Assembly (NCBI GenBank): GCA_009773185.1
Contig: WPIF01000020.1
Span: 1 to 51,567 of the forward strand
Origin: Nitrospirota bacterium
GTDB taxonomy: Bacteria; Nitrospirota; Thermodesulfovibrionia; Thermodesulfovibrionales; UBA1546
Direction of reading: 5' to 3'
Length of the DNA stretch: 51,567 nt
The first letter of the stretch is position 1. The number at the start of each line of letters is the position of its first letter. The translations under genes were made by a program, and so were the position numbers. This document shows, in pieces, positions 9,342 through 23,842 of this stretch. A model generated the notes under the pieces. That model was not told the DNA's origin. It saw nothing but the letters and a program-made list of their open reading frames with translations, and ran no database searches.

Positions 9342-10922
9342 GTGAGAGCGCATGTAAAGAAAACCATCTATTCCCTGACAGGGAAATTAATTATTACCAT
9401 AGGCACTCTGATGGTGGTGGGAAGCACTATCTTCTGGTATTTTCTTATACATTTTCAGGAGAAGGAACTTCTCAGGAATTCTGTAAAATACGGCCATTCT
9501 TTTGTAGACTTTGTAGAAAAAAGCACGCGTTACGGAATGCTCACCTTTCAGCAGCTCCTGATACAGCAGACGGTTGAGGCTATAGGTTCAGCCGAGGGGA
9601 TTGTCAAGATAAGGATGTTCGATGGCAGAGGCAAGATTGCATATTCTTCGGTAAAAGAAGAGAAGGGCACCATGCTGGGCAAAAACGAATCTGTCTGTAT
9701 GCTCTGCCATTCCAATTCCCGCAAGGCAGTAGAGATGCCAAGCTGGTCTATAAAAAAAGACAAGGATGGGTACAGGATACTGAATCTTCTGCAGCCCATT
9801 TATAATGAACCTGCATGTTATACATCTTCCTGCCATGTGCATTCCATCGGGACCGCCATTCTCGGATTTACAGAGGCCGATATATCTTTATCCCTTCTCG
9901 ATAAGGCCGTAAAAAAGCAGGAACTGGCCATAACAGCCTATGTGCTTGGTTTTATATGCCTGCTCTCTGTGGTCCTTTGTACGATACTATGGAACCTTGT
10001 ATCTACCCCTCTCAGTGTACTTACGCATGGCATGGAGAGAGTGGCTGCGGGTGAACTGGACCATACTGTGAAGATAGATACGAAGGATGAGATGGGCGAG
10101 CTTGCAACGGCATTTAACGCCATGACATTTGACCTCAAGAAGGCAAAGGACGAGCTTGTTGAATGGGGCAATACCCTTGAGAAAAAGGTTGAAGAGAAAA
10201 CCGAAGAGATCCGCAAGGCGCAGGCAAAACTCATACATTCTGAAAAACTTGCATCACTTGGAAGGATGGCAGCGGGTGTGGCTCATGAGATAAACAGCCC
10301 CTTAACAGGCATCGTTACCTTTGGCCATCTCCTGCTTAAAAAATTTCCGGAGGGCAGCCAGGAACGGGAAGATGTTGAGGTCATTATTGAACAGGCCAAC
10401 AGATGTTCGAATATCATAAAAGGACTTCTTGGCTTTGCAAGGGCAAGCTCGGCAGAGAAAAGCTCTATAAATGTAAATGATATAGTAAACAGTTCTTTAA
10501 ACATGGTGCGGCATAAGGCAGACTTTTTTAATATCAAGATAGTTCTGAATTTTGATGAGTCTCTCTCTTCCATAAAGGCCGATGCATCCCAGATTCAGCA
10601 GGTATTTTTAAATATGATTATCAATGCAGCAGATGCAATGGAAGGGAAAGGGACCTTTACCGTTACCACACGAAAAGTGGATGAAAACGGCGTTCCCTTT
10701 GTGGAGGTTGAATTTAATGATTCAGGCCCTGGCATAAATGAAAAAGACATTCCAAAACTTTTCGAGCCTTTCTTTACGACAAAACCTGTTGGCAAGGGCA
10801 CCGGGCTTGGCCTTGCTGTAAGTCACGGTATTATTCAGGACCACGGGGGCAGAATACGCGTGAGGAGCACAATTGGAAAAGGTACAAGTTTCTTTGTGAG
10901 GCTCCCTTTTTATGAGGGATAA
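9342..10922 (+). CDS. c-type heme sensor histidine kinase
   Basis: The 526-residue protein has a membrane helix at about 16-36, a periplasmic sensor (37-197), a second helix (198-218), HAMP, a coiled coil and a HisKA/HATPase core. The sensor contains CMLCH (119-123), a canonical CxxCH heme-attachment site, and CYTSSCH (159-165), a CX4CH variant. It therefore probably binds one or two c-type hemes and senses redox state or a gas ligand. The H-box GVAHEINSPLTG has phospho-acceptor H315; N (NMIINAADAM), G1 (DSGPGI) and G2 (GTGLGLAVS) boxes are intact. It heads a run of response regulators, its likely partners. The GTG start lacks a Shine-Dalgarno. Confidence 0.9.
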   Translation: MRAHVKKTIYSLTGKLIITIGTLMVVGSTIFWYFLIHFQEKELLRNSVKYGHSFVDFVEKSTRYGMLTFQQLLIQQTVEAIGSAEGIVKIRMFDGRGKIAYSSVKEEKGTMLGKNESVCMLCHSNSRKAVEMPSWSIKKDKDGYRILNLLQPIYNEPACYTSSCHVHSIGTAILGFTEADISLSLLDKAVKKQELAITAYVLGFICLLSVVLCTILWNLVSTPLSVLTHGMERVAAGELDHTVKIDTKDEMGELATAFNAMTFDLKKAKDELVEWGNTLEKKVEEKTEEIRKAQAKLIHSEKLASLGRMAAGVAHEINSPLTGIVTFGHLLLKKFPEGSQEREDVEVIIEQANRCSNIIKGLLGFARASSAEKSSINVNDIVNSSLNMVRHKADFFNIKIVLNFDESLSSIKADASQIQQVFLNMIINAADAMEGKGTFTVTTRKVDENGVPFVEVEFNDSGPGINEKDIPKLFEPFFTTKPVGKGTGLGLAVSHGIIQDHGGRIRVRSTIGKGTSFFVRLPFYEG

Positions 10923-10959
10923 TCAATAGATATGCAATTGAAGAACGGAGGAGTTTGCT

Positions 10960-11337
10960 ATGAATAAAGGCAATATCCTTGTAGTAGATGATGAAGACAT
11001 AGTGCTCTTGAGCTGCAAAAGGGCGCTCACTCCTGAAGGTTATAATGTCAAGACGGTCAGAAGAGGAGCAGATGGCATAACTCTGCTTGGAAATGAAGCC
11101 TTTGACATTGTAATGACAGACCTGAAGATGCCTGATATGGACGGCATAGAAGTCCTCCGGAGGGTAAAGGAGGGCTGGCCTGCCATTGAGGTCATTATTA
11201 TAACAGGTTATCAGACGGTCGAGACTGCTGTGAAGGCCATAAAACTGGGGGCGTTTGATTATATTGAAAAGCCTTTTACGCCGGAACAGATTTTAACAGT
11301 AGTAAATAATGCTGTTGCGCGCAGGGCAAATCAGTAG
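10960..11337 (+). CDS. Single-domain response regulator
   Basis: The 125-residue protein is a CheY-like receiver: DDE at 10-12, the phospho-acceptor Asp in MTDLKMPDMDG, Thr in IITGY, and Lys in YIEKPF. It has no output domain, so it acts as a phosphorelay intermediate or by protein contact. Its sequence is very close to the receivers of the next three regulators (shared LKMPDMDGIEVLRRV with the NtrC-type gene), suggesting tandem duplication. GGAGG precedes the ATG. It lies 37 bp after the heme kinase. Confidence 0.92.
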   Translation: MNKGNILVVDDEDIVLLSCKRALTPEGYNVKTVRRGADGITLLGNEAFDIVMTDLKMPDMDGIEVLRRVKEGWPAIEVIIITGYQTVETAVKAIKLGAFDYIEKPFTPEQILTVVNNAVARRANQ

Positions 11338-11345
11338 CAGGCAGA

Positions 11346-12746
11346 ATGGATAGGCCCAGGATCCTTGTCATTGATGATGAAGATATAGTAAGGATCAGCT
11401 GTCAAAGGGCGCTTGAACCGGAAGGTTATGATATTACGGCAGTTAAAAGCGGAGCAGATGGTTTAAGGCTGCTGGAAAATGAGGCCTTTGACCTCGTGCT
11501 GACAGACCTGAAGATGCCTGATATGGACGGCATAGAGGTTCTCAGAAGGGTAAGGGAGGGCTGGCCCGACACCGAGGTAATACTGATAACCGGCTATGGC
11601 ACTGTGGCTACTGCTGTAAATGCGATGAAGCTCGGGGCCTTTGATTATATAGAAAAACCATTCAGGCCCAATGAACTGATTATACTTGTCTCAAGGTCTC
11701 TTGAAAGAAAGCGCCTTCTCCTTGAAAATCTCAGGCTCAGAAGCGAACTTACAGGACAGTATAAACTCGAAAATATTATCGGCACATCAAAAACAATGCA
11801 GCGGGTTTTCCATCTCATTGCAAAGGTGGCCTCTACAGGGAGCACAGTTCTCATAACCGGAGAAAGCGGGACAGGAAAGGAATTGATTGCCAGGGCTATC
11901 CACTATAACAGCCCAAGGAAGGACAGGCCTTTTATAGTGGTTGATTGCGGAACCATCCCTGATGCATTAATAGAGTCTGAATTATTCGGGCATGTTAAAG
12001 GCGCTTTCACAGGCGCGATAGAAAACAGAAAAGGGCTGATGGAGCTTGCTGATGAAGGTTCCCTGTTCCTTGATGAGATAGGTAATCTTAACCTTTCAAC
12101 TCAGGCTAAACTCCTGCGTGCGCTGCAGGAAAAAGAATTCAGGCCGCTCGGAGGCAAAAATCCTGTAAAGTGTGATATGCGGTTCATTGTCGCAACTAAC
12201 AAGGATCTGGAGGCCATGACTAAAGAAGGTACATTCAGGGAAGATTTTTTTTACAGGCTTAATGTCTTTCCTGTAAGCATCCCGCCTTTAAGAGACAGGA
12301 AAGAAGATATCCCCATGCTTGCATACCACTTTCTTCAGAAATACAGCAAGGAGACAGGAAAGGACGTTACACATATCTCTGCAGAGACAATGAAGGCGCT
12401 TATCAATTATGAGTGGCCCGGCAATGTCAGGGAGTTGGAAAATACAATTCAGAGGGCCATAATACTCTGTCAGGGCAAGACCCTGCAGCCAGCGCATCTT
12501 CCTCCGCCTGGCGTGGCAGATGATGGTGAAGGAGTTCCCAGGACCATCGTCGAACTGAAGGGCAGGAAAAAAGGCCTTCGCCTGAAATCAATAGAAGATA
12601 TTGAAAAGGCTTTTCTTGTGGATGCCCTGAAAAGAAATGAGTGGAACATATCAAGGGCTGCGCTTGACGTTGGAATGCAGCGCACGAATTTCCATGCCCT
12701 CCTCAAAAAACACAACATCTCCAGAGTGCAGGCAAAGACAAGATAG
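11346..12746 (+). CDS. NtrC-family sigma-54 response regulator
   Basis: The 466-residue protein has a receiver (1-120, Asp54 in VLTDLKMP), an AAA+ domain with Walker A GESGTGKE (172-179) and the sigma-54-contacting loop GAFTGA (219-224), and a C-terminal Fis-type helix-turn-helix (SRAALDVGMQRTNFHALLKKH). It should activate sigma-54 promoters when phosphorylated, probably by the heme kinase. The gene begins 8 bp after the single-domain regulator stop. I found no convincing -24/-12 promoter nearby, so its targets may lie elsewhere. Confidence 0.93.
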   Translation: MDRPRILVIDDEDIVRISCQRALEPEGYDITAVKSGADGLRLLENEAFDLVLTDLKMPDMDGIEVLRRVREGWPDTEVILITGYGTVATAVNAMKLGAFDYIEKPFRPNELIILVSRSLERKRLLLENLRLRSELTGQYKLENIIGTSKTMQRVFHLIAKVASTGSTVLITGESGTGKELIARAIHYNSPRKDRPFIVVDCGTIPDALIESELFGHVKGAFTGAIENRKGLMELADEGSLFLDEIGNLNLSTQAKLLRALQEKEFRPLGGKNPVKCDMRFIVATNKDLEAMTKEGTFREDFFYRLNVFPVSIPPLRDRKEDIPMLAYHFLQKYSKETGKDVTHISAETMKALINYEWPGNVRELENTIQRAIILCQGKTLQPAHLPPPGVADDGEGVPRTIVELKGRKKGLRLKSIEDIEKAFLVDALKRNEWNISRAALDVGMQRTNFHALLKKHNISRVQAKTR

Positions 12747-13025
12747 CTTTTATTTATTAGCTGTATATAAAAATCATACACAGCCTCAACCCTTGATCCT
12801 ATTGGCTTTGCATCCGATTACATGAGAAAAACTGTATTTAATAATTATACAAAATCAAAGGTTACAAGCCATTGAAATTCTTCAATCTGTTGATTTGGCT
12901 GGGTTTTGTAAACTGGTATCATTATTGCTATCTTAATAATTGTAGATTTAGTTGTATGGATTAATGTATATTTGTTTGGGAACGGGGTTTAGAACTTTAA
13001 TGAAATACAGAAAGGAGGCTTAATT

Positions 13026-13793
13026 ATGGAAAAAAAGGGGAAGATATTAGTATTAGATGATGACCCTGTAGTAACTCTGAGCTGTAAAAGAATCCTTGGC
13101 GCTGAAGGCTACAATATCATAACTGTAGACAAGGGCGAAGACGCTATCAAGAGAATCTCTAATGAGGAATTCGATCTTCTGATTTCAGACATAAGGCTGC
13201 CTGATGTTAACGGCATTACTGTATTAAAAGAGTCAAAGATTATACAGCCCAAGCTGGACGTGGTCATAATTACAGGTTACCCGACATTGGACGATGCCAA
13301 AGAATCTGTAAGGCTCGGCGCATTCGAATACATAGAGAAGCCCTTCACTCCTGATTTTATGATGAATGTTGCCAGTAAGGTTTTTGACCAGAGGGGATGG
13401 ATTTTAAGAAAGGCGTTCATTGATGAATTCAGGAACGACATTGTATCTCTCAGGGACACGCAGAATCCTGTTATCTTTTATAAAGAAGGGACATGGGCCA
13501 GGCCCATAAAGGATGGGCTCTGGGAGATCGGCTTTGACATAAGATACTGGCTGCTCAGCGGACAGCTTATGTATATTGATATTCCTGAGGGGCTTAAGAT
13601 GGTTACCGCAGGAGCGTCCTTCGGAAAAATCTTATCGGGTTCCGGTCAGACAGAGGACCTTGTTTCACCGATGAACGGCATGGTCAAGGAGACAAATACA
13701 AATGCCAATACAGCCATGAGCGCATTAATCAGGGATAACCTGAGCGAAGGGTGGCTTCTCTGGCTGGCGAGGGTCCAGCCTATAACGGTTTAA
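13026..13793 (+). CDS. Receiver fused to GcvH-like domain
   Basis: The 255-residue protein has a receiver (1-120, acceptor Asp in LLISDIRLPDVNG, Lys in YIEKPF). The rest resembles glycine-cleavage H protein: GLWEIGFDIRYWLLSGQLMYIDIP, then a hammerhead-like SPMNGMVKETN and GWLLWL. The lipoyl-lysine position is replaced (SGSGQTEDLVSP in place of the usual ESVKAxSD), so lipoylation is not expected. GcvH-like proteins without lipoate may serve as scaffolds. GGAGG lies before the ATG. It follows a 279-bp intergenic gap in which I see no clear element, and it precedes the receiver-NuoE fusion by 41 bp. Confidence 0.75.
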   Translation: MEKKGKILVLDDDPVVTLSCKRILGAEGYNIITVDKGEDAIKRISNEEFDLLISDIRLPDVNGITVLKESKIIQPKLDVVIITGYPTLDDAKESVRLGAFEYIEKPFTPDFMMNVASKVFDQRGWILRKAFIDEFRNDIVSLRDTQNPVIFYKEGTWARPIKDGLWEIGFDIRYWLLSGQLMYIDIPEGLKMVTAGASFGKILSGSGQTEDLVSPMNGMVKETNTNANTAMSALIRDNLSEGWLLWLARVQPITV

Positions 13794-13834
13794 TGCAAAA
13801 TGAACAATTTTGAATTTTACATAGGGGGTAGTTT

Positions 13835-14764
13835 ATGGCGGAAAAACCCAGGATTTTAATTGTTGACGATGAGCTTATAGTCATAAGAAGTGCCGAGAGG
13901 GTCCTTAAGGCAGAGGGGTATGATGTTGAAGGCGCTCTGGGCGGAAGAGAAGCGATTACGAAAATAGAGCAAAACAGCTATGACCTTGTATTTACTGACC
14001 TGAAGATGCCTGAAGTTGACGGGATAACCCTTATCAGGTGGATAAAGAAAACAAAGCCTTCCATAGGGATTGTCATCATTACAGGATATCCGTCGCAGGA
14101 TACTATAAAGGAAGCGCTTGAATTAGGAATAATTGACTATGTGCCAAAACCATTTACTCCTTCGGTGCTTTTAGATGTTACTGAAAGGGCTGCTGAATGG
14201 ATAAAGGGCAGAAAACCTGAAGAAAAAAAGGTTAAAGAGGAATTCCCTCCTGCAATGGAAGCAGAACTGGAGAGGGTCATCTCCGACTTAAGGCGCAAGC
14301 AGGGCGCTTTAATACCTGTTCTTCAGCGCGCACAGGAAATTGTAGGGTATCTTCCCCCTGTAGTGCAGAAGAAAATTTCAAAGGGATTAAATATACCGGT
14401 AGCAGAAGTGCACAGCGTTGTATCATTCTATTCCTTTTTTACGATGAAGCCGAGGGGCGACCATAATATCAGGGTATGCCTTGGCACTGCATGTTATGTC
14501 AAAGGGATTGAACGCGTCCTGAGTAAAATTACAGATGCCTTAAAGATAAACATCGGAGATACTACGGAAAACAGAAAATTTTCCCTGGAAGGTGTGCGCT
14601 GCCTCGGGGCCTGCGGGCTTGCGCCTGTAATGGTCATTGACCAGGAAACACATGGCGCCATGACTCCAAAGAAGGCGCTGGAGATTATAGGCCAGTATGA
14701 ACCGGCAGTCCTGGAAGCAGTATCTGCCTCAGGGATGGAAGAAATGGCGGAGAAGGAGGGGTAA
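13835..14764 (+). CDS. Receiver fused to NuoE-type [2Fe-2S] subunit
   Basis: Residues 1-120 are a complete receiver (D55 in FTDLKMP, K105 in YVPKPF). Residues about 145-295 are a NuoE/HndA-like thioredoxin-fold [2Fe-2S] domain: helical QEIVGYLPPVVQKKIS, VVSFYSFF, CLGTAC (C215, C220) and CLGACG (C256, C260). All four cluster ligands are present. NuoE normally partners NuoF to pass electrons from NADH. Fusion to a receiver suggests phosphorylation could gate electron transfer or complex assembly; that is inference. The gene begins with GGGG upstream of the ATG and the HndB-like gene follows 1 bp after the stop. Confidence 0.9.
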   Translation: MAEKPRILIVDDELIVIRSAERVLKAEGYDVEGALGGREAITKIEQNSYDLVFTDLKMPEVDGITLIRWIKKTKPSIGIVIITGYPSQDTIKEALELGIIDYVPKPFTPSVLLDVTERAAEWIKGRKPEEKKVKEEFPPAMEAELERVISDLRRKQGALIPVLQRAQEIVGYLPPVVQKKISKGLNIPVAEVHSVVSFYSFFTMKPRGDHNIRVCLGTACYVKGIERVLSKITDALKINIGDTTENRKFSLEGVRCLGACGLAPVMVIDQETHGAMTPKKALEIIGQYEPAVLEAVSASGMEEMAEKEG

Positions 14765-14765
14765 T

Positions 14766-15149
14766 ATGCCTAGATTGAAAATAGAGGACCTTCAGAAGAT
14801 TAAGGAAAAACATAAGGCGGATTTCGCGCTTAGGGAAGGCGGCTACAGGGCAAAGGTGACAGTCCATATGGGCACATGCGGGATTGCGGCAGGCGCCAGG
14901 AATGTCATGACTGCATTGATGGATGAGATAGCAAAGGCCAACAGAAGCGATGTTATAGTTACTACCTCCGGTTGTGCAGGCCTCTGTGCGCGCGAACCTC
15001 TGGCCACTGTGGAGATAATGAATCAGTCGCCGGTAAAGTATTGCGACCTGAGCGACGAGAAGATAAGGGAGATATTTAAAGAGCACATACTCGGCGGCAA
15101 TCCTGTAGAAAAGTATGCACTGGTAATGGGAAGCGAGACAACATATTAA
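14766..15149 (+). CDS. HndB-like thioredoxin-fold [2Fe-2S] protein
   Basis: The product (127 residues) has VHMGTCGIAAGA (C38) and TTSGCAGLCAREP (C70, C74), like the HndB subunit of NADP-reducing hydrogenases. C93 could complete a cluster. The start is placed at the ATG at 14766 because AAGGAGGGG lies immediately upstream; a longer reading would overlap the previous gene. It probably forms part of the NuoEF-type diaphorase module. A repeat-filled 119-bp gap separates it from the NuoF-like gene. Confidence 0.85.
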   Translation: MPRLKIEDLQKIKEKHKADFALREGGYRAKVTVHMGTCGIAAGARNVMTALMDEIAKANRSDVIVTTSGCAGLCAREPLATVEIMNQSPVKYCDLSDEKIREIFKEHILGGNPVEKYALVMGSETTY

Positions 15150-15153
15150 AAAG

Positions 15154-15249
15154 ATTCAAGATTTAAAATTCAAGATTTAAAAACGCTGAGTTCATTAATT
15201 TTGAATTTTGGATGTTGAATATTGAATATTGAATATTGAATATTGAATA
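15154..15249. repeat. Heptanucleotide-type tandem repeats between redox genes
   Basis: ATTCAAGATTTAAA occurs twice in tandem (15154-15181), and TTGAATA is repeated five times (15215-15249). ATTCAA and TTGAAT are reverse complements, so the two blocks can pair. They fill the gap between the HndB-like and NuoF-like genes. Confidence 0.9.
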
Positions 15250-15268
15250 TTTATTTAGGAGGATATTA

Positions 15269-17137
15269 ATGGAAAAGTTTCGTGCAAATTTAATGTTATG
15301 TGCAGGAACGGGCTGTGTTGCCAGCGGAACAACTAAAGTCAGAGACGCCCTCCGTGATGAGATTCAAAAAAGAGGGCTTGATGAGGAAATAAAGATAGTC
15401 CTGACAGGATGCAACGGCTATTGCGCTGAAGGCCCTGTCCTGTCGGTTTATCCTGATGAAATCTTTTATCAAAAATTAACAGTTGAAGAAATCCCCAAAT
15501 TAGTTGAAGAGCATTTTCTCAAAGGCAGGCCCTACGAGAAATTAATGTTTAAAGAACCCGAGAAAAAGACAGCAATACCGATGATGAAAGATATCCCTTT
15601 CTTCAAGCATCAGGTACTAAGGGTTTTAAGAAACAAGGGACTTATAGACCCTGAAAAGATTGAAGAATACATTGCCAGAGACGGTTATCAGGCAGCAGCA
15701 AAGGCGCTTACCCAGATGACTCAGGAAGATATAATCAAGGTAATAAAAGATTCCGGATTAAGAGGGAGAGGCGGCGCAGGCTTTCCTACAGGCCTGAAAT
15801 GGGACTTTGCGTCCAAAGTTAAATCCGATATCAAATACATGCTCTGTAACGGCGATGAAGGAGACCCGGGCGCATTTATGGACAGGTCTGTTATGGAGGC
15901 AGACCCTCATTCAGTAATAGAGGGCATGATTATAGGGGCCAGGGCCATAGGAGCGCATCACGGTTACATATATGTCAGGGCTGAATATCCATTGGCTGTT
16001 AAACGCCTTCAGCTTGCAATAGACCAGGCTACGGAGGCAGGGCTTCTCGGCAATAATATTCTTGATACAGGGTTTGATTTCAAACTTGAAATATATCTGG
16101 GAGCTGGCGCTTTTGTATGCGGTGAAGAGACTGCGCTTATGCGTTCCCTTGAGGGAAAACGCGGGATGCCCAGGCCGAGGCCTCCATTCCCTGCTCACAA
16201 GGGGTTGTGGGACAAGCCGTCTGTTCTGAATAATGTTGAAACCCTGGCACAGATAGCTCCCATTATCCTGAATGGTTCTGACTGGTACAGGAGCCTTGGC
16301 ACTGAGAAGAGCACAGGCACTAAAGTTTTTGCACTTACAGGCGCTATAAATAATGTTGGTCTGGTTGAGGTCCCGATGGGAATTCCGCTCAGAACTATCA
16401 TATATGACATAGGCGGAGGACCTAAGAAGGGAAGAAAATTCAAGGCGGTTCAGCTTGGCGGGCCTTCAGGCGGCTGCATCCCTGAAAGTCTCCTTGATAT
16501 ACCTGTAACATACGAAGATATCGTTGCAACAGGAGCTATTGTGGGTTCAGGTGGAATGGTCGTTATGGATGACAATACATGCATGGTAGGCACAGCCAAA
16601 TTCTTCCTTGAATTTACAGCAGATGAATCCTGCGGCAAATGCACGCCGTGCAGGGTGGGAACAAAAATACTGCTTGATATGCTTACTGATATTACTGAAG
16701 GCAGGGGAAAAGAAGGCGATATGGAGACACTCGAAGACCTGGGCAGGGATATAATTGCCACATCTCTTTGCGGCCTTGGACAGACAGCGCCGAACCCGGT
16801 GCTTACAACAATAAAATACTTCAGGGACGAATATGAATCCCATATAAAACACAAGTGGTGCAAGGCAGGCGTATGCCGCAGCCTGACCACCTTCTGGATT
16901 GACGAAAAAATGTGCAAGGGCTGCGGAGCCTGCTTGAGAGGGTGCCCGTCCAAGGCCATAATGGGCGAAAAGAAAAAGCCGCACAAGATTATTCAGGAAC
17001 TTTGCGTGCGTTGCAGAAGCTGTTATGAGGCATGCAAATTCAAGTCTATAAAAATTCTGCCTGCCAACTTTGAAGGCGACCCTTCGGAATTAGTCGGAGT
17101 GACAACCGAAACTGAAACAAAAAAGGGGGAATCATAA
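15269..17137 (+). CDS. NuoF-like NADH-binding flavoprotein subunit
   Basis: The 622-residue protein has an N-terminal [2Fe-2S] thioredoxin-like domain (MLCAGTGCVASG and LTGCNGYCAEGP). The NuoF core follows: GRGGAGFPTG (FMN/NADH), NGDEGDPGAFMDR, GAGAFVCGEETAL, an SLBB-like region, and ESCGKCTPCRVGT for a [4Fe-4S] cluster. The C-terminus is a 2[4Fe-4S] ferredoxin domain (CKGCGACLRGCPSKA, CVRCRSCYEACKF). It matches HydB/HndC-type diaphorase subunits. The start at 15269 follows GGAGG; an upstream in-frame start would lie in the TTGAATA repeats. It exchanges electrons between NAD(P)H and the iron-sulfur chain. Confidence 0.94.
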   Translation: MEKFRANLMLCAGTGCVASGTTKVRDALRDEIQKRGLDEEIKIVLTGCNGYCAEGPVLSVYPDEIFYQKLTVEEIPKLVEEHFLKGRPYEKLMFKEPEKKTAIPMMKDIPFFKHQVLRVLRNKGLIDPEKIEEYIARDGYQAAAKALTQMTQEDIIKVIKDSGLRGRGGAGFPTGLKWDFASKVKSDIKYMLCNGDEGDPGAFMDRSVMEADPHSVIEGMIIGARAIGAHHGYIYVRAEYPLAVKRLQLAIDQATEAGLLGNNILDTGFDFKLEIYLGAGAFVCGEETALMRSLEGKRGMPRPRPPFPAHKGLWDKPSVLNNVETLAQIAPIILNGSDWYRSLGTEKSTGTKVFALTGAINNVGLVEVPMGIPLRTIIYDIGGGPKKGRKFKAVQLGGPSGGCIPESLLDIPVTYEDIVATGAIVGSGGMVVMDDNTCMVGTAKFFLEFTADESCGKCTPCRVGTKILLDMLTDITEGRGKEGDMETLEDLGRDIIATSLCGLGQTAPNPVLTTIKYFRDEYESHIKHKWCKAGVCRSLTTFWIDEKMCKGCGACLRGCPSKAIMGEKKKPHKIIQELCVRCRSCYEACKFKSIKILPANFEGDPSELVGVTTETETKKGES

Positions 17138-17138
17138 A

Positions 17139-19592
17139 ATGGTAGACCTTATAATTGACAATAAAAAGATATCCGTGGAAGAGGGCACTACAATTCTTAA
17201 GGCAGCCCAGATGAACGGGATTAAGATACCAAATATGTGCTATGACAAAAGGCTCAGGCCTTACGGAGGATGCAGGCTCTGTGTTGTTGAAGTCGAAGGC
17301 CAGCCCAGGCTTTTTGCCTCATGTTCGACACCTGCGGCTCCCAACATGGTAGTTAAAACAGACACTCCAAAGTTAAGAAAAGCGCGTCAGACGGTACTTG
17401 AACTTTTACTTATCCATCATCCATTGGACTGCCCGGTATGCGATAAGGCAGGCGAATGCGACCTTCAGGACATAGCCTATGAATACGGCAAACCCGAAGG
17501 CCGTTTTAAAAGGCACAGGAAAGACATGCCTCCTGATGTAAGGGGGCCATTGGTTGAATTGACTGCCAACAGATGCATCCTCTGCGGCAAATGTGTGCGT
17601 ATATGCTCCGAGCATCAGGGCCGGGGCGCATTGGGATTTATCGGCAGGGGCTTCCCCACAGTTGTTCAGCCTGCATTCGGTGAAATCCTTGAATGTGATT
17701 ACTGCGGGCAGTGTATAGACATATGCCCTACAGGCGCGCTTTTGAGCAAGCCCTTCAAGTTTCAGGCGCGTGCATGGTTTCTCGAGGAAAAAGACACTAT
17801 CTGTCCTTTCTGCGGCTGCGGATGCACCCTGACACTGGGAATAAGGGAAGGAAAGATACTGAGGTCAAGGGCCAAAGAAGATAACGGCAGAAGCGAGGGT
17901 AACCTGTGCGGAAGAGGCAGGTTTGGGTTTGATTACATATACAGCGAGAACCGCCTTAAGACGCCTATGATAAGAAAAGAGGGGAACCTTGTCCCTGCGA
18001 CATGGGAAGAGGCATTGACATATATAAGCGAAAGCCTGAAATACGTTATAAGCTCCTATGGCAGGGAATCTGTAGGCGCCATAGGTTCTCATAGGTGCAC
18101 AACTGAAGATAACTTCATGCTGAAAAAATTCATGCTGAATGTTATTGGTTCAGATAATATAGACTCTTCTGCTGCCTTTGGATATTCAAAGGTCCAGAAG
18201 GCGCTGGATAAGGCTTTGGGGATGAAAACACACCGGATAAACCTGAAAGCGCCTTTGGGCAAGGAAATTATTCTGATAATAGAGTCGGATATAAGCATTA
18301 CCCACCCTGTTTTCGGCCTTAATATACTTCAGGCAAAGAGAGAAGGCTCAAACCTGATTGTGGCGGATTCAAGGGAGACAAAGCTTACACGGCACAGTTT
18401 AAGCCATCTGAGAATGAAACAGGGGACCTCAGTTGCATTTCTTAACGGGTTAATGAAACTCATTATAGACAAGGGCCTTTTCAACAGGGAGATTGTCTCA
18501 AAGTTCCCGGGTTTCCCGGAGTTCGAAAAGAGCCTGAAAGACTATACTGCTGATAAGGTGTCAAAGATTACAGGCATATCCGGAGAAGACCTTGCAGCTA
18601 CGGCAGAGATGCTTGCAAAGGCAAAGAGCAGGATGCTCTCCTTTACTGTCAGCCTTACAGAAAACACAAAAGGCGCTGACACGGTGCTTGCTGCCTCTAA
18701 TATGATAATCCTTATGGGAGAGGACGCAGGTTCGCTGCAGATACCCGCGGAATATGCAAACACATACGGGCTGTATAATATGGGGGCCGGGGCGTCAGGC
18801 AGTAAAAATATATTCGATATGCTGTATAAATCCGGCTCTTTTCATGCGCTCTATATAATGGGTGAAGACCCTGTTTCTGCTTTTCCGCACAATTCAAAGA
18901 TAATGGGGAACCTTAAATCCCTTGAACTGCTTGTTGTTCAGGATATTGCCTTAACAGAGACAGCGAAGCTGGCTCATGTGGTCCTTCCTGCTTCAAGCTG
19001 GGCTGAAAAAGACGGCACATTTATCAATGCTGAGGGTGCAACCCAGAAGTTAAAAAAGATAGTTGATGCTCCGGGACAGTCGCTGCCTGACTGGCAGATA
19101 CTTAGGAACCTGTCTTTATCCATGGGAAGAGAGATTGCCGTCAGAAATATTGAAGATATCTCAGAAGAAATCAAGAACACAATACAGGAAGAACCTGCAT
19201 CAGATAAAAGGGCCTTTACCCCTGTGTCTTATGCAGCGGCAGAAGAGCCTGACACAGAATATCCGCTGGCGTTTGTAACGAGAGATGTCCTGCAGCACTC
19301 GGGAACCATGTCAACAAGGTCCAAGGCCCTTGACCTGGTTGTCTCAGAGGCATTTCTTGAGATAAATGATGAAGATGCCGGAAAGTATGCGATATCCGAC
19401 AACAGCCATGTCAAGGTGACATCAAGGAGGGGCACTGTTTATCTGAAGGCAAAGGTTTCAGATGCAGTTCCGGCAGGGACAGTCTTTACGTCAGTTCATT
19501 TTCCGCACGGACGCGTCAATGCGCTTACGCATTTTTCAGAAAACGGCACAGCATACACAGACGCTGTGAAGATAGAGGCAGTAAAAGTCTGA
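17139..19592 (+). CDS. NuoG/FdhA-like molybdopterin-fold subunit lacking Cys/Sec
   Basis: The 817-residue protein has an N-terminal [2Fe-2S] ferredoxin domain (C34, C45, C48, C62), a His-Cys cluster motif (HHPLDCPVCDKAGEC), two [4Fe-4S] motifs (CILCGKCVRIC, CDYCGQCIDICP), a CPFCGCGC...GNLCGRG cluster motif and a molybdopterin oxidoreductase fold, with HSGTMSTRS near the C-terminus. In formate dehydrogenases a Cys or Sec ligates the metal. The aligned stretch here is NIDSSAAFGYSKVQ, with Gly at that position, so formate oxidation is unlikely and a NuoG-like electron-wire role fits better. There is no H-cluster, so it is not an [FeFe]-hydrogenase. It follows the NuoF-like stop by 1 bp. Confidence 0.85.
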   Translation: MVDLIIDNKKISVEEGTTILKAAQMNGIKIPNMCYDKRLRPYGGCRLCVVEVEGQPRLFASCSTPAAPNMVVKTDTPKLRKARQTVLELLLIHHPLDCPVCDKAGECDLQDIAYEYGKPEGRFKRHRKDMPPDVRGPLVELTANRCILCGKCVRICSEHQGRGALGFIGRGFPTVVQPAFGEILECDYCGQCIDICPTGALLSKPFKFQARAWFLEEKDTICPFCGCGCTLTLGIREGKILRSRAKEDNGRSEGNLCGRGRFGFDYIYSENRLKTPMIRKEGNLVPATWEEALTYISESLKYVISSYGRESVGAIGSHRCTTEDNFMLKKFMLNVIGSDNIDSSAAFGYSKVQKALDKALGMKTHRINLKAPLGKEIILIIESDISITHPVFGLNILQAKREGSNLIVADSRETKLTRHSLSHLRMKQGTSVAFLNGLMKLIIDKGLFNREIVSKFPGFPEFEKSLKDYTADKVSKITGISGEDLAATAEMLAKAKSRMLSFTVSLTENTKGADTVLAASNMIILMGEDAGSLQIPAEYANTYGLYNMGAGASGSKNIFDMLYKSGSFHALYIMGEDPVSAFPHNSKIMGNLKSLELLVVQDIALTETAKLAHVVLPASSWAEKDGTFINAEGATQKLKKIVDAPGQSLPDWQILRNLSLSMGREIAVRNIEDISEEIKNTIQEEPASDKRAFTPVSYAAAEEPDTEYPLAFVTRDVLQHSGTMSTRSKALDLVVSEAFLEINDEDAGKYAISDNSHVKVTSRRGTVYLKAKVSDAVPAGTVFTSVHFPHGRVNALTHFSENGTAYTDAVKIEAVKV

Positions 19593-19610
19593 GAGGCATC
19601 TATCAAAAGC

Positions 19611-19967
19611 ATGAAATTGGGCGAGATCAAAAAGATACTCAATGCAGTAGTGCTTTCAAAAAATGGCGATATGGAGCTTGAAATAGGGAGGGCCTACTGC
19701 GCTGACCTTATGAGCGATGTCCTTGCATTCTCCATCACCAACTCCCTTTTGATAACAGGCCTGACCAATTCTCAGGTCATACGCACCGCTGATATGGCTG
19801 ATATGAATGCAATAGTATTTGTTCAGGGCAAACGGCCTGACCTGGAAACAATTTCTCTTGCGGAAGAAAAAAATATTCCTTTACTTGTGACTGATTTTTC
19901 GATGTTCGGCACATGCGGCAGGCTTTTTGAGAAGGGGCTTCAGGGGCGTTCTAACAGAGATAAATGA
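19611..19967 (+). CDS. DRTGG-domain protein (first copy)
   Basis: The 118-residue protein contains GRAYCADLMSDVLAFSITNSLLITGLTNSQVIRTADM and IVFVQGKRPDLETISLAEEKNIPLLVTDFSMFGTCGRL, the layout of DRTGG domains. These are found with CBS or phosphotransferase modules and recurrently beside NADH-linked hydrogenase operons. The biochemical function is not established. It starts 18 bp after the NuoG-like gene and overlaps the next start by 4 bp, so it is in the same operon. A related copy lies two genes downstream. Confidence 0.8.
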   Translation: MKLGEIKKILNAVVLSKNGDMELEIGRAYCADLMSDVLAFSITNSLLITGLTNSQVIRTADMADMNAIVFVQGKRPDLETISLAEEKNIPLLVTDFSMFGTCGRLFEKGLQGRSNRDK

Positions 19968-20398
19968 ATAAGACTGCAGAGGGTGTATTTTTTCTGACGG
20001 GGAAAGATTTTGCAAAGGCGGGCGTTGCCTCAAGCAATTTAAAAGCAATACTTGAAAGCATGGGCGTTCCGCCTGATATTATCCGGAGGGCGGCCATAGC
20101 AGCCTTTGAGGCAGAAGTGAATGTGATTATATATGCCGTGGCAGGCATGATGCACTATTCCATAACGCAGGAAATGATAAAGATTATTGTTCAGGACATG
20201 GGGCCGGGCATTCCTGATATCGCACTTGCAATGACAGAAGGTTATTCAACTGCGCCTGATTACATCAGGGAGATGGGGTTCGGTTCCGGCATGGGGCTTC
20301 CGAATATCAAAAAAAGTACGGACAAACTGACTGTAAATTCCGTTGTCGGAGAGGGGACCACACTAGAGTTTATTATAAATTTAAATAAAACTGCCTGA
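19964..20398 (+). CDS. Anti-sigma/RsbT-like ATPase domain protein
   Basis: The 144-residue single GHKL ATPase domain has an N-box AAFEAEVNVIIYA, a G1 box QDMGPGIPD and a G2 box GFGSGMGLPNIK. Size and motif spacing match RsbT/SpoIIAB-type serine kinases and anti-sigma factors. There is no His-containing dimerisation domain. It lies between two DRTGG genes, an arrangement also seen near HydABC-type operons. It may phosphorylate or sequester a partner in response to the redox complex. That role is inferred. Confidence 0.82.
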   Translation: MNKTAEGVFFLTGKDFAKAGVASSNLKAILESMGVPPDIIRRAAIAAFEAEVNVIIYAVAGMMHYSITQEMIKIIVQDMGPGIPDIALAMTEGYSTAPDYIREMGFGSGMGLPNIKKSTDKLTVNSVVGEGTTLEFIINLNKTA

Positions 20399-20409
20399 AG
20401 GAGTAAACC

Positions 20410-20751
20410 ATGAAACTGCAGGAGCTTGTTAACAGCCTTTCTCTTGAAGTAAAGACGCCGGGAATGGATTTAAACCGGGAAGTAACCGGAGGTTATGCGA
20501 GCGACCTCCTGTCTGATGTAATCGGGAATGCAAAGGAAGGGTCTGTCTGGATAACGCTTCAGGTCCACCTTAATATCGTGGCAGTAGCTTCTTTAAAGGG
20601 CCTTTCAGGAATCGTACTTGTGAATAACAGGATGCCAGATGACGATACCCTGAAAAAGGCCTCTGAAGAGAATATCCCGGTAATGACAAGCCCGCTTGCA
20701 GCCTTTGAACTCATTGGCAGGCTTTATACCCTTGGCCTGAGATGCCGGTAG
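20410..20751 (+). CDS. DRTGG-domain protein (second copy)
   Basis: The 113-residue protein resembles the DRTGG protein two genes upstream: GGYASDLLSDVIGNAKEGSVWITLQ, GIVLVNNRMPDDDTLKKASEENIPVMTSPLAAFELIGRL. It is probably the product of a duplication. GAAGGAG precedes the ATG. The stop overlaps the PHP gene start by 10 bp, indicating tight coupling. A partner or sensor role in the redox operon is likely but unproven. Confidence 0.8.
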   Translation: MKLQELVNSLSLEVKTPGMDLNREVTGGYASDLLSDVIGNAKEGSVWITLQVHLNIVAVASLKGLSGIVLVNNRMPDDDTLKKASEENIPVMTSPLAAFELIGRLYTLGLRCR

Positions 20752-21482
20752 AATTTGTAGCAGACCTTCATATTCACACATGTCTTTCCCCCTGCGCAGA
20801 GCTTTCGATGACGCCGAAGGGAATCGTAGAAAAGGCTGCATCGCTCGGGATAAACATAATAGCTGTCTGCGACCATAATTCTGCTGAAAATGTTGAAGTA
20901 ACAAAAGGCCTTGCAAAGAAAAAAGGGATAAATGTCATTGCAGGAATGGAAATCAGTTCTTCGGAAGAGGTTCATGTCCTTGGTTTTTTCAATGACACGG
21001 AAAGCGTCCTTAAGATGCAGGCAGTTGTTTATGAGAACCTTCAGGCAGGAGAAAATGACGAGGATAAATTCGGGATGCAGGTTGTTGTTAATGAAGACAA
21101 TGAGGTCTTGGGGTTTAATAAGAGGCTTCTGATAGGCGCTACAAGCCTCTCAGTGAATAAAATAGTTGATTTGATACACGGTTTTAACGGCATTGCAGCA
21201 GCAAGCCATATTGACAGAGATGTGTTTGGAATCATAGGGCAGCTCGGGTTCATTCATCCTGACATTAAATTTGATGCGCTGGAAATCTCCTTCAGGCTGA
21301 AGCTTAAAGAAGCGCTGATAAGATACGGCGCATACAGTCATATCCCGTGGATTTCCTCATCTGACGCGCACAGGATAGAAGACATAGGCAGAAGGACTAC
21401 AAGATTTCTTATGAACCATTCCACATTTGAGGAATTATTTCTGGCCCTCAAGGGCGCTGAAGGAAGAAAGATTGCGTTTTAA
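20742..21482 (+). CDS. PHP-domain phosphoesterase
   Basis: The 246-residue protein begins ADLHIHTCLSPCAE, the metal-binding HxH of PHP domains. It continues with IIAVCDHNSAEN, IAGMEISSSEEVHVLG, AASHIDR and ISSSDAHRIEDIG, which supply the remaining His, Asp and Glu ligands. PHP domains hydrolyse phosphoesters; in this neighbourhood the substrate could be a nucleotide or phosphoprotein, but that is speculation. It is coupled by overlap to the second DRTGG gene. A branched repeat element lies directly downstream, before the HATPase gene. Confidence 0.88.
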   Translation: MPVEFVADLHIHTCLSPCAELSMTPKGIVEKAASLGINIIAVCDHNSAENVEVTKGLAKKKGINVIAGMEISSSEEVHVLGFFNDTESVLKMQAVVYENLQAGENDEDKFGMQVVVNEDNEVLGFNKRLLIGATSLSVNKIVDLIHGFNGIAAASHIDRDVFGIIGQLGFIHPDIKFDALEISFRLKLKEALIRYGAYSHIPWISSSDAHRIEDIGRRTTRFLMNHSTFEELFLALKGAEGRKIAF

Positions 21483-21495
21483 TCGAGTAGTCATG

Positions 21496-21626
21496 AGGCA
21501 GGTTGGCTGTAATATTCTCGCTCATTATCGCTTCGCTCCGAGGTATTTTGCCTCTTTATTTTTCTTATTATTACTGCCGGACTATCGGCAAAATAAAACC
21601 GCTCAAATACTATATCCAACCTGCCT
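21496..21626 (+). repeat. Branched covarying intergenic element, copy 1
   Basis: Outer arms AGGCAGGTTGG (21496-21506) and CCAACCTGCCT (21616-21626) are perfectly complementary. Inside lie a CTCG...CCGAG hairpin and TATTTTGCC...GGCAAAATA arms. The core matches copies at 28312 and 33134, but the outer arms have a different sequence. It lies between the PHP and HATPase genes. Confidence 0.88.
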
Positions 21627-21654
21627 GGATATTTGCGGTAAAGAGAGTTGATTT

Positions 21655-22200
21655 ATGGAAGACATCTCTCTCCACATACTTGATATAGCGGAGAATTCTA
21701 TAGCTGCGGGTGCAACTATCATAAAAATCACAATAGCCGAGGATACAGGTAAAGACCTTCTCTCTGTTGAAATTGAAGATAACGGCAGAGGCATCCCTGA
21801 GGAGTTCATAAAAAAGGTCCTGGACCCTTTTTATACAACGCGCACAACAAGAAAAACCGGTTTCGGGCTTTCATTCCTTGCGCAGTCGGCAAGGGAGACA
21901 GGCGGAGATATCTCAATAAAATCAAAAGAGGGTAAAGGCACTGCAATATCTGCCTGTTTTAAATACAGCCACATAGACAGAAAGCCTCTCGGTAATATTG
22001 CTGATACCCTCATTGTTTTAATTGCAGGCAATCCTCATATTGATTTTCTCTATGAACACAGGCGTAATGGCAATGTTTATTCCATCAATACAAAGGAGAT
22101 AAGGCCGGAACTCGGAGAGGTGCCGCTGAATTTTCCGGCTGTGATAAATGTTATAAGAAAAGACATAGAGGATGGGATTAAAGGGCTGGGCATGGTATAA
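21655..22200 (+). CDS. Standalone HATPase-domain protein
   Basis: The 181-residue protein is a histidine-kinase-type ATPase domain (HILDIAENSIAAGA as N-box, EDNGRGIPE as G1, KTGFGLSFLAQ as G2, KEGKGTAISACF) without any dimerisation/His domain. The last 70 residues form a further region I do not recognise. Similar lone ATPase proteins accompany DRTGG and PHP genes in hydrogenase-type operons. It could transfer phosphate to, or regulate, the nearby receiver-bearing proteins. AGAGAG before the ATG is a weak ribosome binding site. Confidence 0.8.
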   Translation: MEDISLHILDIAENSIAAGATIIKITIAEDTGKDLLSVEIEDNGRGIPEEFIKKVLDPFYTTRTTRKTGFGLSFLAQSARETGGDISIKSKEGKGTAISACFKYSHIDRKPLGNIADTLIVLIAGNPHIDFLYEHRRNGNVYSINTKEIRPELGEVPLNFPAVINVIRKDIEDGIKGLGMV

Positions 22201-22315
22201 TTTATCACCTGAATTTTCTTTGTGGCAAATGTGACTTTGTTATGATATGATTTGTAAGTAGATATGCAACTGTTTGACTGAGAAGTATAGGAGAAGATAC
22301 AACCATTGGAGTAAA

Positions 22316-23842
22316 ATGACGACTGTCCCTGAAAAATTGAGTATAGAGGGCAAGGGCTTACGGAATAAACTTACGGTTATTGCTTCCCTGCTGTTTTTGC
22401 TGCCTTCTTTTGTCATCCTGTATATTTTATATAAAGAAAATATCTCTTTAAGGTCGGATAATTCTTACCTGGTCTTGATCGGGCTGACGCTTGTTCTTGC
22501 CCTTGCAGGCCTGATTATTCTGAGGAAGGTTTTCAGTGAATTCATACTGCTCTCCGGTTACATGAAAAAGGCAGAGGCCGGAGAAATGTATATGATGGAG
22601 GTCCAGAAAAGCACTGCCGAACTCCATGACATATCGGTTTCTTTTAATAATCTCATGAGAAAACTCGAAGTGACTACGAAGCGCCTTGAGGATCAGGCAT
22701 CTGAACTAAAAGAAGAGACTATTAAGCGCAAACGCGCAGAAGAGGGGCTTTTGCTGATGGTGAAAGCTGTTGAAAATACCAAAACAGGGATTACATTTGC
22801 CGACCGTGACAATGTAATCCGTTATACGAATCCGGCTGAGGCTAAAATGCATGGATATGCGCAGGAGGAACTTGTTGGCAAGAGCGTCAGGGTTTTCTCT
22901 CCGCCAGGAATGGGCCGGCCCATAGCATTTGAGGACATGAATGCGATAAAAGGCTGGGCCCGGGAAAGTGTCAATATAAAAAAGGATGGAAGCATATTCC
23001 CGGTTTATCTGATGTCTGATCTTGTGAAAAACGACGACGGGGAGCCTATAGGCATTGTCACTATTTGTGAAGACATGACCGAATCCAAGAGGGTGCAAAA
23101 GGAGCTGGAGGAGGCATATGCCCATGTATTCCATACAGGCCGTCTGTCGCAACTTGGTGAAATGGCTATGGGGATAGCACGTGAAATCAACCTGCTGTTA
23201 AACAGCATCTCCCGCACTAACCATTCAATGCTGGTTGACACAAAGGACGGGAAAATTCCGTCATTACCTGTAGTGGAAAGAAGCCTCAACAAGATAGATA
23301 ATCAGATAGCAAAGGTCAAGGACATTATTGAACATTTGAGGGTTTTTTCCCGGAAAGAGACAGGCAGCAGCCACTTTCACCTGATAGATGTTGCGGATTC
23401 TGTTAAGGGTGCATTGTTATTGATAGAAGAGCAGCTTAAAGTAAGAGATATAGGGGTTGAAATGCATTTCCCTCCTGATTTTCCGGATGTGCTGGCAAAC
23501 CCAAGCTGGCTTGAGCAGGTTTTCCTGAATCTTATGACCAATGCCAGAGACGCAATGGAAAACCAGCCAAGAAATGAGAAGCAGGTGCTGAGCATACGCG
23601 GGCGCAAAAACCCGGACGGCGGGGTTACGATTGATGTCAGTGATACCGGCAGCGGTATTCCCCATGAAATAAGGGACAAGATTTTTGATTCGTTCTTTAC
23701 AACAAAAGAGCCGGACAGAGGAACAGGCCTTGGACTTGCCATAAGCCGTGGCATAATAAAGGAACACGGCGGAGACCTTACGCTTGAACCTCAAGAAGGC
23801 AAAGGAAGCACTTTTCGCATTATCCTTCCACCGGTAGAATAA
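22316..23842 (+). CDS. PAS histidine-kinase-like protein lacking the H-box His
   Basis: The product (508 residues from the ATG at 22316) has two membrane helices (near 20-40 and 50-70), a short HAMP-like linker, a coiled coil, one PAS domain (about 145-260) and a HisKA/HATPase region. In the H-box the sequence is MAMGIAREINLLLNS: the phospho-acceptor His is Arg (R289) and the usual Pro is Leu. The N, G1 (DTGSGIP) and G2 (GTGLGLAISRG) boxes look intact. It may be a pseudokinase or an allosteric partner of the heme kinase. An upstream TTG start (22274) is less likely because GGAG precedes the ATG. Confidence 0.82.
   Translation: MTTVPEKLSIEGKGLRNKLTVIASLLFLLPSFVILYILYKENISLRSDNSYLVLIGLTLVLALAGLIILRKVFSEFILLSGYMKKAEAGEMYMMEVQKSTAELHDISVSFNNLMRKLEVTTKRLEDQASELKEETIKRKRAEEGLLLMVKAVENTKTGITFADRDNVIRYTNPAEAKMHGYAQEELVGKSVRVFSPPGMGRPIAFEDMNAIKGWARESVNIKKDGSIFPVYLMSDLVKNDDGEPIGIVTICEDMTESKRVQKELEEAYAHVFHTGRLSQLGEMAMGIAREINLLLNSISRTNHSMLVDTKDGKIPSLPVVERSLNKIDNQIAKVKDIIEHLRVFSRKETGSSHFHLIDVADSVKGALLLIEEQLKVRDIGVEMHFPPDFPDVLANPSWLEQVFLNLMTNARDAMENQPRNEKQVLSIRGRKNPDGGVTIDVSDTGSGIPHEIRDKIFDSFFTTKEPDRGTGLGLAISRGIIKEHGGDLTLEPQEGKGSTFRIILPPVE

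Follow-up and report, generated by a model that had tools for sequence, protein, structure and literature searches.

The Gene Cluster

Contig WPIF01000020.1 of a Nitrospirota bacterium (class Thermodesulfovibrionia, order Thermodesulfovibrionales; GenBank assembly GCA_009773185.1, 2.79 Mb in 44 contigs) is 51,567 nucleotides long and is hereafter called the window. At positions 9342–23842 it carries a run of + strand genes in which subunits of a NuoEFG-like redox complex are combined with proteins of two-component signalling. An earlier reading of this DNA (the original prediction) had proposed a same-strand run of a kinase, receivers, diaphorase subunits, DRTGG, ATPase and PHP proteins and a kinase lacking its His. 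All of these parts were located at the predicted positions and strand (Table 1), and the gene content supports the wiring of the redox complex to two-component proteins. The redox part consists of a receiver-GcvH fusion, a receiver-NuoE fusion, a 2Fe-2S protein (Fd2), NuoF, and a NuoG/FdhA-like protein.

Table 1. Features of the gene run at positions 9342–23842 of the window.
Feature	Position	Strand	Evidence
HK1, histidine kinase with HAMP, HisKA and HATPase domains; CxxCH and CX4CH heme-like motifs in sensor region	9342..10922	+	Pfam, motif conservation
Stand-alone receiver	10960..11337	+	Pfam Response_reg, 109.6 bits
NtrC-type response regulator: receiver, sigma-54 activator AAA+, Fis HTH	11346..12746	+	Pfam
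Candidate sigma-54 promoter (TGGTAT, 5 bases, TTGCT), 5' of receiver-GcvH	12914..12929	+	Motif scan, relatives
Receiver-GcvH; GcvH-like domain without conserved lipoyl lysine	13026..13793	+	Pfam, PDB sequence match, alignment of 37
Receiver-NuoE/HydC (BfuC-like), defining feature	13835..14764	+	Pfam, PDB match, alignment of 44
Fd2, small thioredoxin-like 2Fe-2S protein	14766..15149	+	Pfam and NCBIfam matches below cut-off; conserved in 39
NuoF/HydB (BfuB-like), N-terminal 2Fe-2S and C-terminal 2x4Fe-4S domains	15236..17137	+	PDB match
NuoG/FdhA-like subunit (BfuA-like), five Fe-S cluster ligand patterns	17139..19592	+	Pfam, NCBIfam, PDB match, alignment
DRTGG protein 1	19611..19967	+	Pfam, 32.3 bits (cut-off 25.2)
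GHKL ATPase, RsbW/SpoIIAB-like	19964..20398	+	Pfam, NCBIfam
DRTGG-like protein 2	20410..20751	+	Pfam, 20.4 bits, below cut-off (25.2); synteny
PHP-domain protein	20742..21482	+	Pfam
Second GHKL ATPase	21655..22200	+	Pfam
HK2, PAS-HATPase kinase-like protein without phospho-acceptor His	22274..23842	+	Pfam: no HisKA match

The Bifurcating-Type Core

In the parts of the paper by Schut et al. (2022; PMC9304861) available to us, the Bfu family is defined by a BfuB subunit with five clusters together with BfuC, and a His ligand of the B2 cluster is described as nearly universal in the family, whereas non-bifurcating homologues lack it. The best PDB match of the window NuoF was HydB of A. mobile (7t2r_B, 836 bits over nearly the full length), compared with about 400 bits for complex I NuoF, and the best match of the NuoE domain was HydC of the same enzyme (7t2r_C). 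Alignment to A. mobile HydB located the B2 ligands C449, T487, H536, C542, and C547. Among 37 aligned NuoF sequences, four of these are invariant and T487 is present in 34; Cys22 and Cys27 of the N-terminal 2Fe-2S cluster are found in 34 and the remaining Fe-S cysteines in all 37. These and the following conservation counts were drawn from loci L031–L075, L080, and L142–L161 with length cut-offs, a few genomes being counted twice through overlapping loci. PF01512, PF10589, and Fer4 scored above the Pfam cut-offs in the window NuoF, and the SLBB part (PF10531) reached 22.6 bits, under the cut-off of 27; we take these Pfam names to correspond to the InterPro domains that delimit BfuB. Orthologue lengths suggest that the protein probably starts at the ATG at 15269. 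A thioredoxin-like 2Fe-2S subunit corresponding to BfuC and a BfuA-like subunit with 2Fe-2S and 4Fe-4S domains are also present. Taken together, the data support the assignment of the window core to the Bfu family, and as such it would probably carry out NADH/ferredoxin bifurcation.

Identity with the NADH module of canonical complex I was rejected, as the window NuoF has additional domains compared with the NuoF of about 420–440 aa encoded in the nuoA-N operon. Canonical NuoF also formed a separate clade (support 100) in the NuoF trees, the first of which was built from 85 of 105 distinct sequences thinned at 90% identity and the second from 37 hand-picked ones.

The NuoG-like subunit retains Cys/His patterns for five Fe-S clusters, assigned by pattern in 35 aligned sequences. 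A formate dehydrogenase accompanied by accessory regulators might be read from its Fdh-alpha score (477.7 bits against a cut-off of 666.25) and from its best PDB matches, which are formate dehydrogenase alpha subunits. However, the position of the Cys/Sec metal ligand is occupied by Gly in all 35 orthologues, that of the catalytic His by Tyr in 33 (His and Phe in one each), and that of the Arg by Gln in 32 (Gly in three). With these residues, which we presume to be the catalytic ones of formate dehydrogenases, lost, that identity was rejected, and we regard the formate dehydrogenase explanation as extremely improbable. Two other NuoE/NuoF/NuoG-like sets were noticed in genome G000, one on contig C15 (L131) beside genes that by eye resemble carbon monoxide dehydrogenase/acetyl-CoA synthase, the other on contig C19 (L132) with its NuoG/FdhA frame in two pieces, perhaps at a selenocysteine codon.

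Receivers and Kinases

Both fusion proteins combine a receiver with a recognisable second domain. In receiver-NuoE the 2Fe-2S_thioredx domain scored 163.9 bits in Pfam; at least 95% of the 44 aligned fusions retain the receiver residues D55, T83, and K105 and the cluster ligands C215, C220, C256, and C260. In receiver-GcvH the GCV_H domain scored 29.9 bits (cut-off 22.2), and its receiver likewise has the Asp, Thr, and Lys (D55, T83, and K105), conserved in 95% or more of 37 sequences. A lipoyl-carrier role of the GcvH-like domain was rejected, since no conserved Lys stands at or near the lipoyl site in these 37 proteins, a minority of which have a Lys close to it. A Foldseek search with the receiver-GcvH model returned receiver-domain proteins among the 50 matches listed; as the matches were all of the receiver type, they were uninformative on the GcvH part. 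The four receivers of the cluster are 39–68% identical to each other and 20–35% identical to four other receivers of the window that were compared. Such closeness would fit a single cognate kinase.

The N-terminal sensor region of HK1 contains the motifs CMLCH and CYTSSCH, and its phospho-His is kept in the alignment of relatives. CxxCH was found in 21 and CX4CH in 22 of the 24 aligned rows, one of which (L050) is probably not an orthologue; in G009 and G014, two genomes in which the gene set is placed inside a nuo operon, CxxCH is lost. The motifs suggest that HK1 binds heme. Thus, of the heme-sensing kinase originally proposed, the kinase and its CxxCH/CX4CH motifs are confirmed, while heme binding is a suggestion from these motifs. 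HK2 has an R at the expected phospho-His position, as judged by eye, and no HisKA match in Pfam. Among the loci read, a His-less kinase occurs only in the window and in one genome of the same genus, G001, of which a single contig is covered by both L031 and L051. HK2, although present as predicted, is a local addition outside the conserved core.

Elsewhere in the window, further hybrid kinases and HD-GYP-like regulators were seen by eye in the list of open reading frames (24801–26978, the first also by Pfam; 37095–39089; 46179–48128; 48125–49636), and the protein at 37095 has another CxxCH in its sensor region. A MamK-family actin-like protein is encoded near ScpA at 6221–7249 on the − strand (NCBIfam MamK, 418.8 bits; cut-off 400).

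Recurrence in Thermodesulfovibrionia

Of 176 genomes examined from the order, 107 carry the receiver-NuoE fusion (E ≤ 1e-60); among the 126 with at least 90% completeness and at most 5% contamination, the number is 77. Recurrence in related genomes had been set beforehand as a test of the original prediction, and these counts bear it out. In a draw of 295 genomes across the phylum, the fusion was present in 15 of the 17 that belong to the class but to other orders, and in none of the 178 from other classes. In a scan of named genomes, limited to the best 80 of 566 relatives, full or nearly full fusions occurred under the titles Nitrospirae, Nitrospirota, or their subgroups and in one record each titled 'Deferribacteres', 'Bacterium BMS3Bbin05', and 'Nitrospira japonica'; the remaining loci among these 80 matched scarcely beyond the NuoE part, if at all. 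The commonest core order is receiver-GcvH, receiver-NuoE, Fd2, NuoF, NuoG. In many loci the DRTGG-ATPase-DRTGG-PHP-ATPase block and genes for HK1, response regulators, and NtrC-type regulators precede or follow this core, parts of the set being missing in some.

Because the core order recurs in many related loci, the gene set is more than a chance assembly. The set is real, conserved, and specific to the class, and it probably represents a form of the Bfu/Nuo-Bfu type that carries its own putative His-Asp regulation. No report of a receiver-NuoE fusion was found in the literature searched, which included few subscription papers and left preprints outside its scope, and the combination of receiver, GcvH, and NADH also returned nothing there.

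Probable Sigma-54 Control of the Core Genes

A sigma-54-type site lies 5' of receiver-GcvH in 25 of 44 rows, compared with 1.7% of base-composition shuffles, and in 23 of 41 distinct upstream regions after repeats were dropped, a set that still includes near-relatives such as the window and L031. The site is present in each of the nine distinct regions that neighbour an NtrC-type gene and in 14 of the 32 others. Among the 18 regions without it, receiver-GcvH directly follows a same-strand response regulator or ATPase gene in 15. Sites were rare 5' of receiver-NuoE (5/50) and were not found 5' of HK1 (0/22), DRTGG1 (0/17), NuoF (0/47), NuoG (0/45), or nuoA (0/14). A scan of the whole window gave 20 matches against 28.6 expected, which is not above chance. 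The distribution of sites, together with the receivers fused to redox-type domains, supports two putative layers of control, one acting on transcription and one on the enzyme itself.

Association with Complex I Genes

Receiver-NuoE (E ≤ 1e-60) and nuoD (at least 70% identity) could both be placed in 92 genomes, and in 28 of these, from 6 of 12 families, they lie no more than 20 kb apart; about 1.4 such cases would be expected at random (92 × 40 kb / 2.7 Mb). The two genes are divergent in 25 of the cases and codirectional in three. Under the same cut-offs, with at least 58% identity for canonical NuoF, the cluster is present in 69 of 84 good genomes with a nuoD like that of G009 and in 8 of 42 without one, some of these eight (e.g., G033, G037) having split or truncated nuoD matches.

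The arrangement is closest in G009, which is 100% complete and in which the cluster stands between nuoD and nuoH. There, nuoABCD are followed by HK1, a response regulator, receiver-NuoE, Fd2, NuoF, and NuoG, with receiver-GcvH missing, and then by DRTGG, ATPase, DRTGG, PHP, ATPase, and nuoHIJKLM. No canonical nuoF was found in this genome, the best match (9e-126) being as for the Bfu type. In G014 the cluster is located between nuoE and nuoF. The nuo operons of four further genomes (G018, G030, G040, G059) were read without nuoEFG; in two of them, G030 and G059, cluster and operon are divergently oriented and a canonical nuoF lies elsewhere in the genome.

A sister arrangement was found in family f23, which belongs to another Nitrospirota class. 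In all four loci read, DRTGG-ATPase-DRTGG-PHP-ATPase-NuoE-Fd2-NuoF is set inside the nuo operon without a receiver, and the contigs that reach further (L162, L165) run on into NuoG and nuoHIJ. The block directly follows nuoD in three loci. In the fourth, L162, the two are separated by nuoE and nuoF genes of canonical type (15137–16838), with one NuoG seen for the two NuoE/NuoF pairs, and in L165 a canonical-type nuoF/nuoG (3–2773) precedes nuoA in the same nuo region as the bifurcating-type NuoE/NuoF. In the NuoF tree, f23 is sister to the receiver-linked clade (98/94; the latter itself 100/98), and both stand next to relatives found near Rnf genes (99/92). A simple history would be that a bifurcating input module of membrane pumps acquired its receivers in one class. 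From these arrangements, docking of the module on complex I appears likely.

Proposed Function and Alternatives

We give about an even chance to the reading that the cluster encodes a phosphorelay-controlled NADH/ferredoxin electron-input module of the Nuo-Bfu type. NuoF, the NuoE domain, and the NuoG-like protein would form BfuABC, a bifurcating or confurcating unit oxidising NADH and reduced ferredoxin, and the electrons would most likely reach menaquinone by way of the complex I membrane arm. HK1, with its c-type-heme-like motifs, would phosphorylate the receivers of the cluster; the NtrC-type regulator would then drive sigma-54 transcription of the genes for receiver-GcvH, receiver-NuoE, Fd2, NuoF, and NuoG, and the receivers fused to NuoE and GcvH would act on the assembled enzyme. 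In this family the 2Fe-2S domain of the NuoE-type subunit has been proposed as the part that shifts towards the B2 cluster, so a receiver attached to NuoE might serve as a gate on the use of ferredoxin or on docking. An accessory block of DRTGG, GHKL ATPase, and PHP proteins is common to the cluster and to HydABC, Rnf-linked, and complex-I-linked relatives. A more specific and distinctly more tentative proposal is that in Thermodesulfovibrionia the module serves as an interchangeable second head of complex I, and that phosphorylation of the Asp in the NuoE receiver gates confurcation and selects the head that supplies the proton pump.

A number of observations weigh against a module docked on complex I. 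The genome of the window encodes a full canonical complex I in a nuoA-N operon, including a separate nuoEFG, on a different contig (L142), so that there the module could at most be a second, alternative head; BfuABC inside a complex I operon is seen in G009, G014, and the f23 sisters. Nineteen of the 28 adjacencies come from one family (f13). In the other 64 of the 92 genomes the two genes were not seen within 20 kb of each other, partly owing to contig ends, and in two single-contig genomes they are 148 and 239 kb apart. The co-occurrence of the cluster with nuoD is confounded by descent. The cluster was present in 12 of 14 genomes without canonical nuoF and in 57 of 70 with it (Fisher p = 1), and the absence of nuoEFG by itself is therefore no evidence for the module. 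Genomes of family f9 have neither the cluster nor, save for weak matches in some, a NuoF, and a published Thermodesulfovibrio genome has two complexes I without nuoEFG, according to the part of the report considered here (PMC5165239); such complexes consequently do not need the module. In two of the four f23 loci a canonical-type nuoF is also present, so the f23 module need not be the sole head. The window NuoG-like subunit is FdhA-like, which sets it apart from the NuoG encoded in the f23 operons, and the structure models of the receiver fusions (pTM 0.46–0.49) leave the arrangement of their domains without confidence.

Part of this evidence would suit a free-standing soluble Bfu enzyme under phosphorelay control that never docks on complex I, uses NADH, ferredoxin, and a third substrate through the FdhA-like subunit, and lies near nuo genes through shared regulation. 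The full separate complex I of the window genome, the FdhA-like subunit with its five cluster patterns, the 64 genomes with the cluster not seen near nuoD, and the canonical-type nuoF of two f23 loci all favour it, as does the StnABC transhydrogenase, in which the inactive FdhF-like domain of the NuoG-like subunit StnC serves assembly, in the portion of the paper used here (PMC10482914). However, no recurring candidate gene for a third substrate was seen beside the cluster in the 46 loci clustered, and the commonest unassigned neighbour families there were complex I subunits. The replacement of nuoEFG by the cluster in the nuo operon of G009 and the ties of the sister clades to pumps, complex I in f23 and Rnf in L077 and L082, also speak against a soluble enzyme, which we consider doubtful. 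The soluble redox complex of the original prediction thus stands as a NuoEFG-like complex but is less likely to be free-standing, its kin being placed inside or beside complex I operons.

The original prediction went further in proposing a sensor of NADH/ferredoxin balance that signals through phosphorylation. In such a sensor, a diaphorase-like complex would hand on the redox state to the receivers and the NtrC-type regulator. The fusion of receivers to redox-type domains, the adjoining kinase and transcription factor, and the sigma-54-type site 5' of the redox genes are consistent with such a sensor. Nevertheless, receivers are usually outputs of kinases rather than inputs to them, the residues of the Fe-S and flavin domains of the enzyme are kept, and the f23 and Rnf-linked sisters stand in pump gene clusters without receivers. 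With enzyme residues kept and receivers attached to the enzyme with intact phosphorylation residues, signalling would act on the enzyme and, in view of the sigma-54-type sites, also on its transcription. A regulated enzyme fits better than a sensor, and a mainly sensory role appears improbable, although the two-component wiring itself was predicted correctly.

Two-component signalling is best known for the control of transcription or motility. In the fusion described here a receiver is covalently joined to an Fe-S enzyme subunit, and the fusion occurs in most sampled members of the class; a two-component system may in this way control energy metabolism directly at the enzyme. The more tentative proposal, with a gate on confurcation in an interchangeable second head, would if true mean direct His-Asp control of electron bifurcation. 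If the receiver gates the enzyme, it becomes testable what turns confurcation on or off and whether input modules of complex I can be exchanged. For some of the nuoEFG-less complex I operons of Thermodesulfovibrionia, the cluster is in addition a possible partner.

Comparison with Known Systems

Genes of the accessory block adjoin NuoE/NuoF genes in 11 of 53 loci with titles other than Nitrospirota. The expectation that DRTGG, ATPase, and PHP companions accompany NADH-linked hydrogenases holds: the partner was a true [FeFe] hydrogenase (Pfam PF02906) in two clusters scanned (L099, L124), and Rnf in two others. A literature search for DRTGG with PHP domain and hydrogenase, or for DRTGG with FeFe, returned nothing in what was searched. 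PF02906 had no match in the entire genome of the window, with Thermotoga maritima as a positive control, which agrees with the predicted absence of a hydrogenase subunit and led to the rejection of an [FeFe] hydrogenase (HydABC) reading. Like the window, the HydABC clusters contain NuoE, Fd2, NuoF, and these accessory genes, arranged in much the same sequence, with HydA in place of the pseudo-FdhA subunit; the receivers are an addition of the window set. In L099 (2879–4252) and L124 (8176–9507) a further [FeFe]-hydrogenase-like protein (PF02906, Fer4, FeS) lies between the GHKL ATPase and DRTGG2. The window set does not include this protein, which is possibly a sensor of hydrogen, and one could speculate that the phosphorelay input took over the regulatory place held elsewhere by this protein.

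Rnf genes beside Bfu clusters were confirmed in L082 (titled Deltaproteobacteria) and L077 (titled Spirochaetes), whose NuoF sequences are 67% (cut at the contig end in L082) and 65% identical to that of the window; the label Rnf-linked given to L081 reflects its position in the first NuoF tree. Both confirmed clusters have the FdhA-like subunit and the DRTGG/PHP genes, as in the window, but adjoin Rnf genes and lack the receivers. An FdhA/NuoG-like protein and a NuoE domain are fused in one frame downstream of the Rnf genes in L082 (4484–7414). A paper on the organism of L054 lists complex I and Rnf, and the part of it available does not mention 'response regulator' (PMC5812927).

StnABC resembles the window core in its HydBC-like bifurcating part and in the NuoG-like subunit with an inactive FdhF-like domain; it differs in an NADPH-binding domain, and a receiver goes unmentioned in the portion of the paper used (PMC10482914). 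Among the closest known systems is Nuo-Bfu, the predicted bifurcating complex I of Schut et al. (PMC9304861, as far as available). It shares with the window the HydB-type NuoF, the HydC-type NuoE, and the B2 His, relatives of the window set are placed in or beside nuo operons, and Nitrospirae are among the clades named for it. The terms 'response regulator', 'histidine kinase', and 'receiver' do not occur in the main text of that paper. Compared with Nuo-Bfu, the window set adds receiver-NuoE, receiver-GcvH, the kinase, and the NtrC-type regulator, has an FdhA-like NuoG, and often lies apart from the nuo operon. For a receiver that acts on complex I by contact, the parallel is Rv3143 of M. tuberculosis, an orphan response regulator that, in the part of the report considered here (PMC9274095), binds NuoD and has been proposed as a component of complex I; Rv3143 is a stand-alone protein, whereas the receiver of the window is fused to NuoE.

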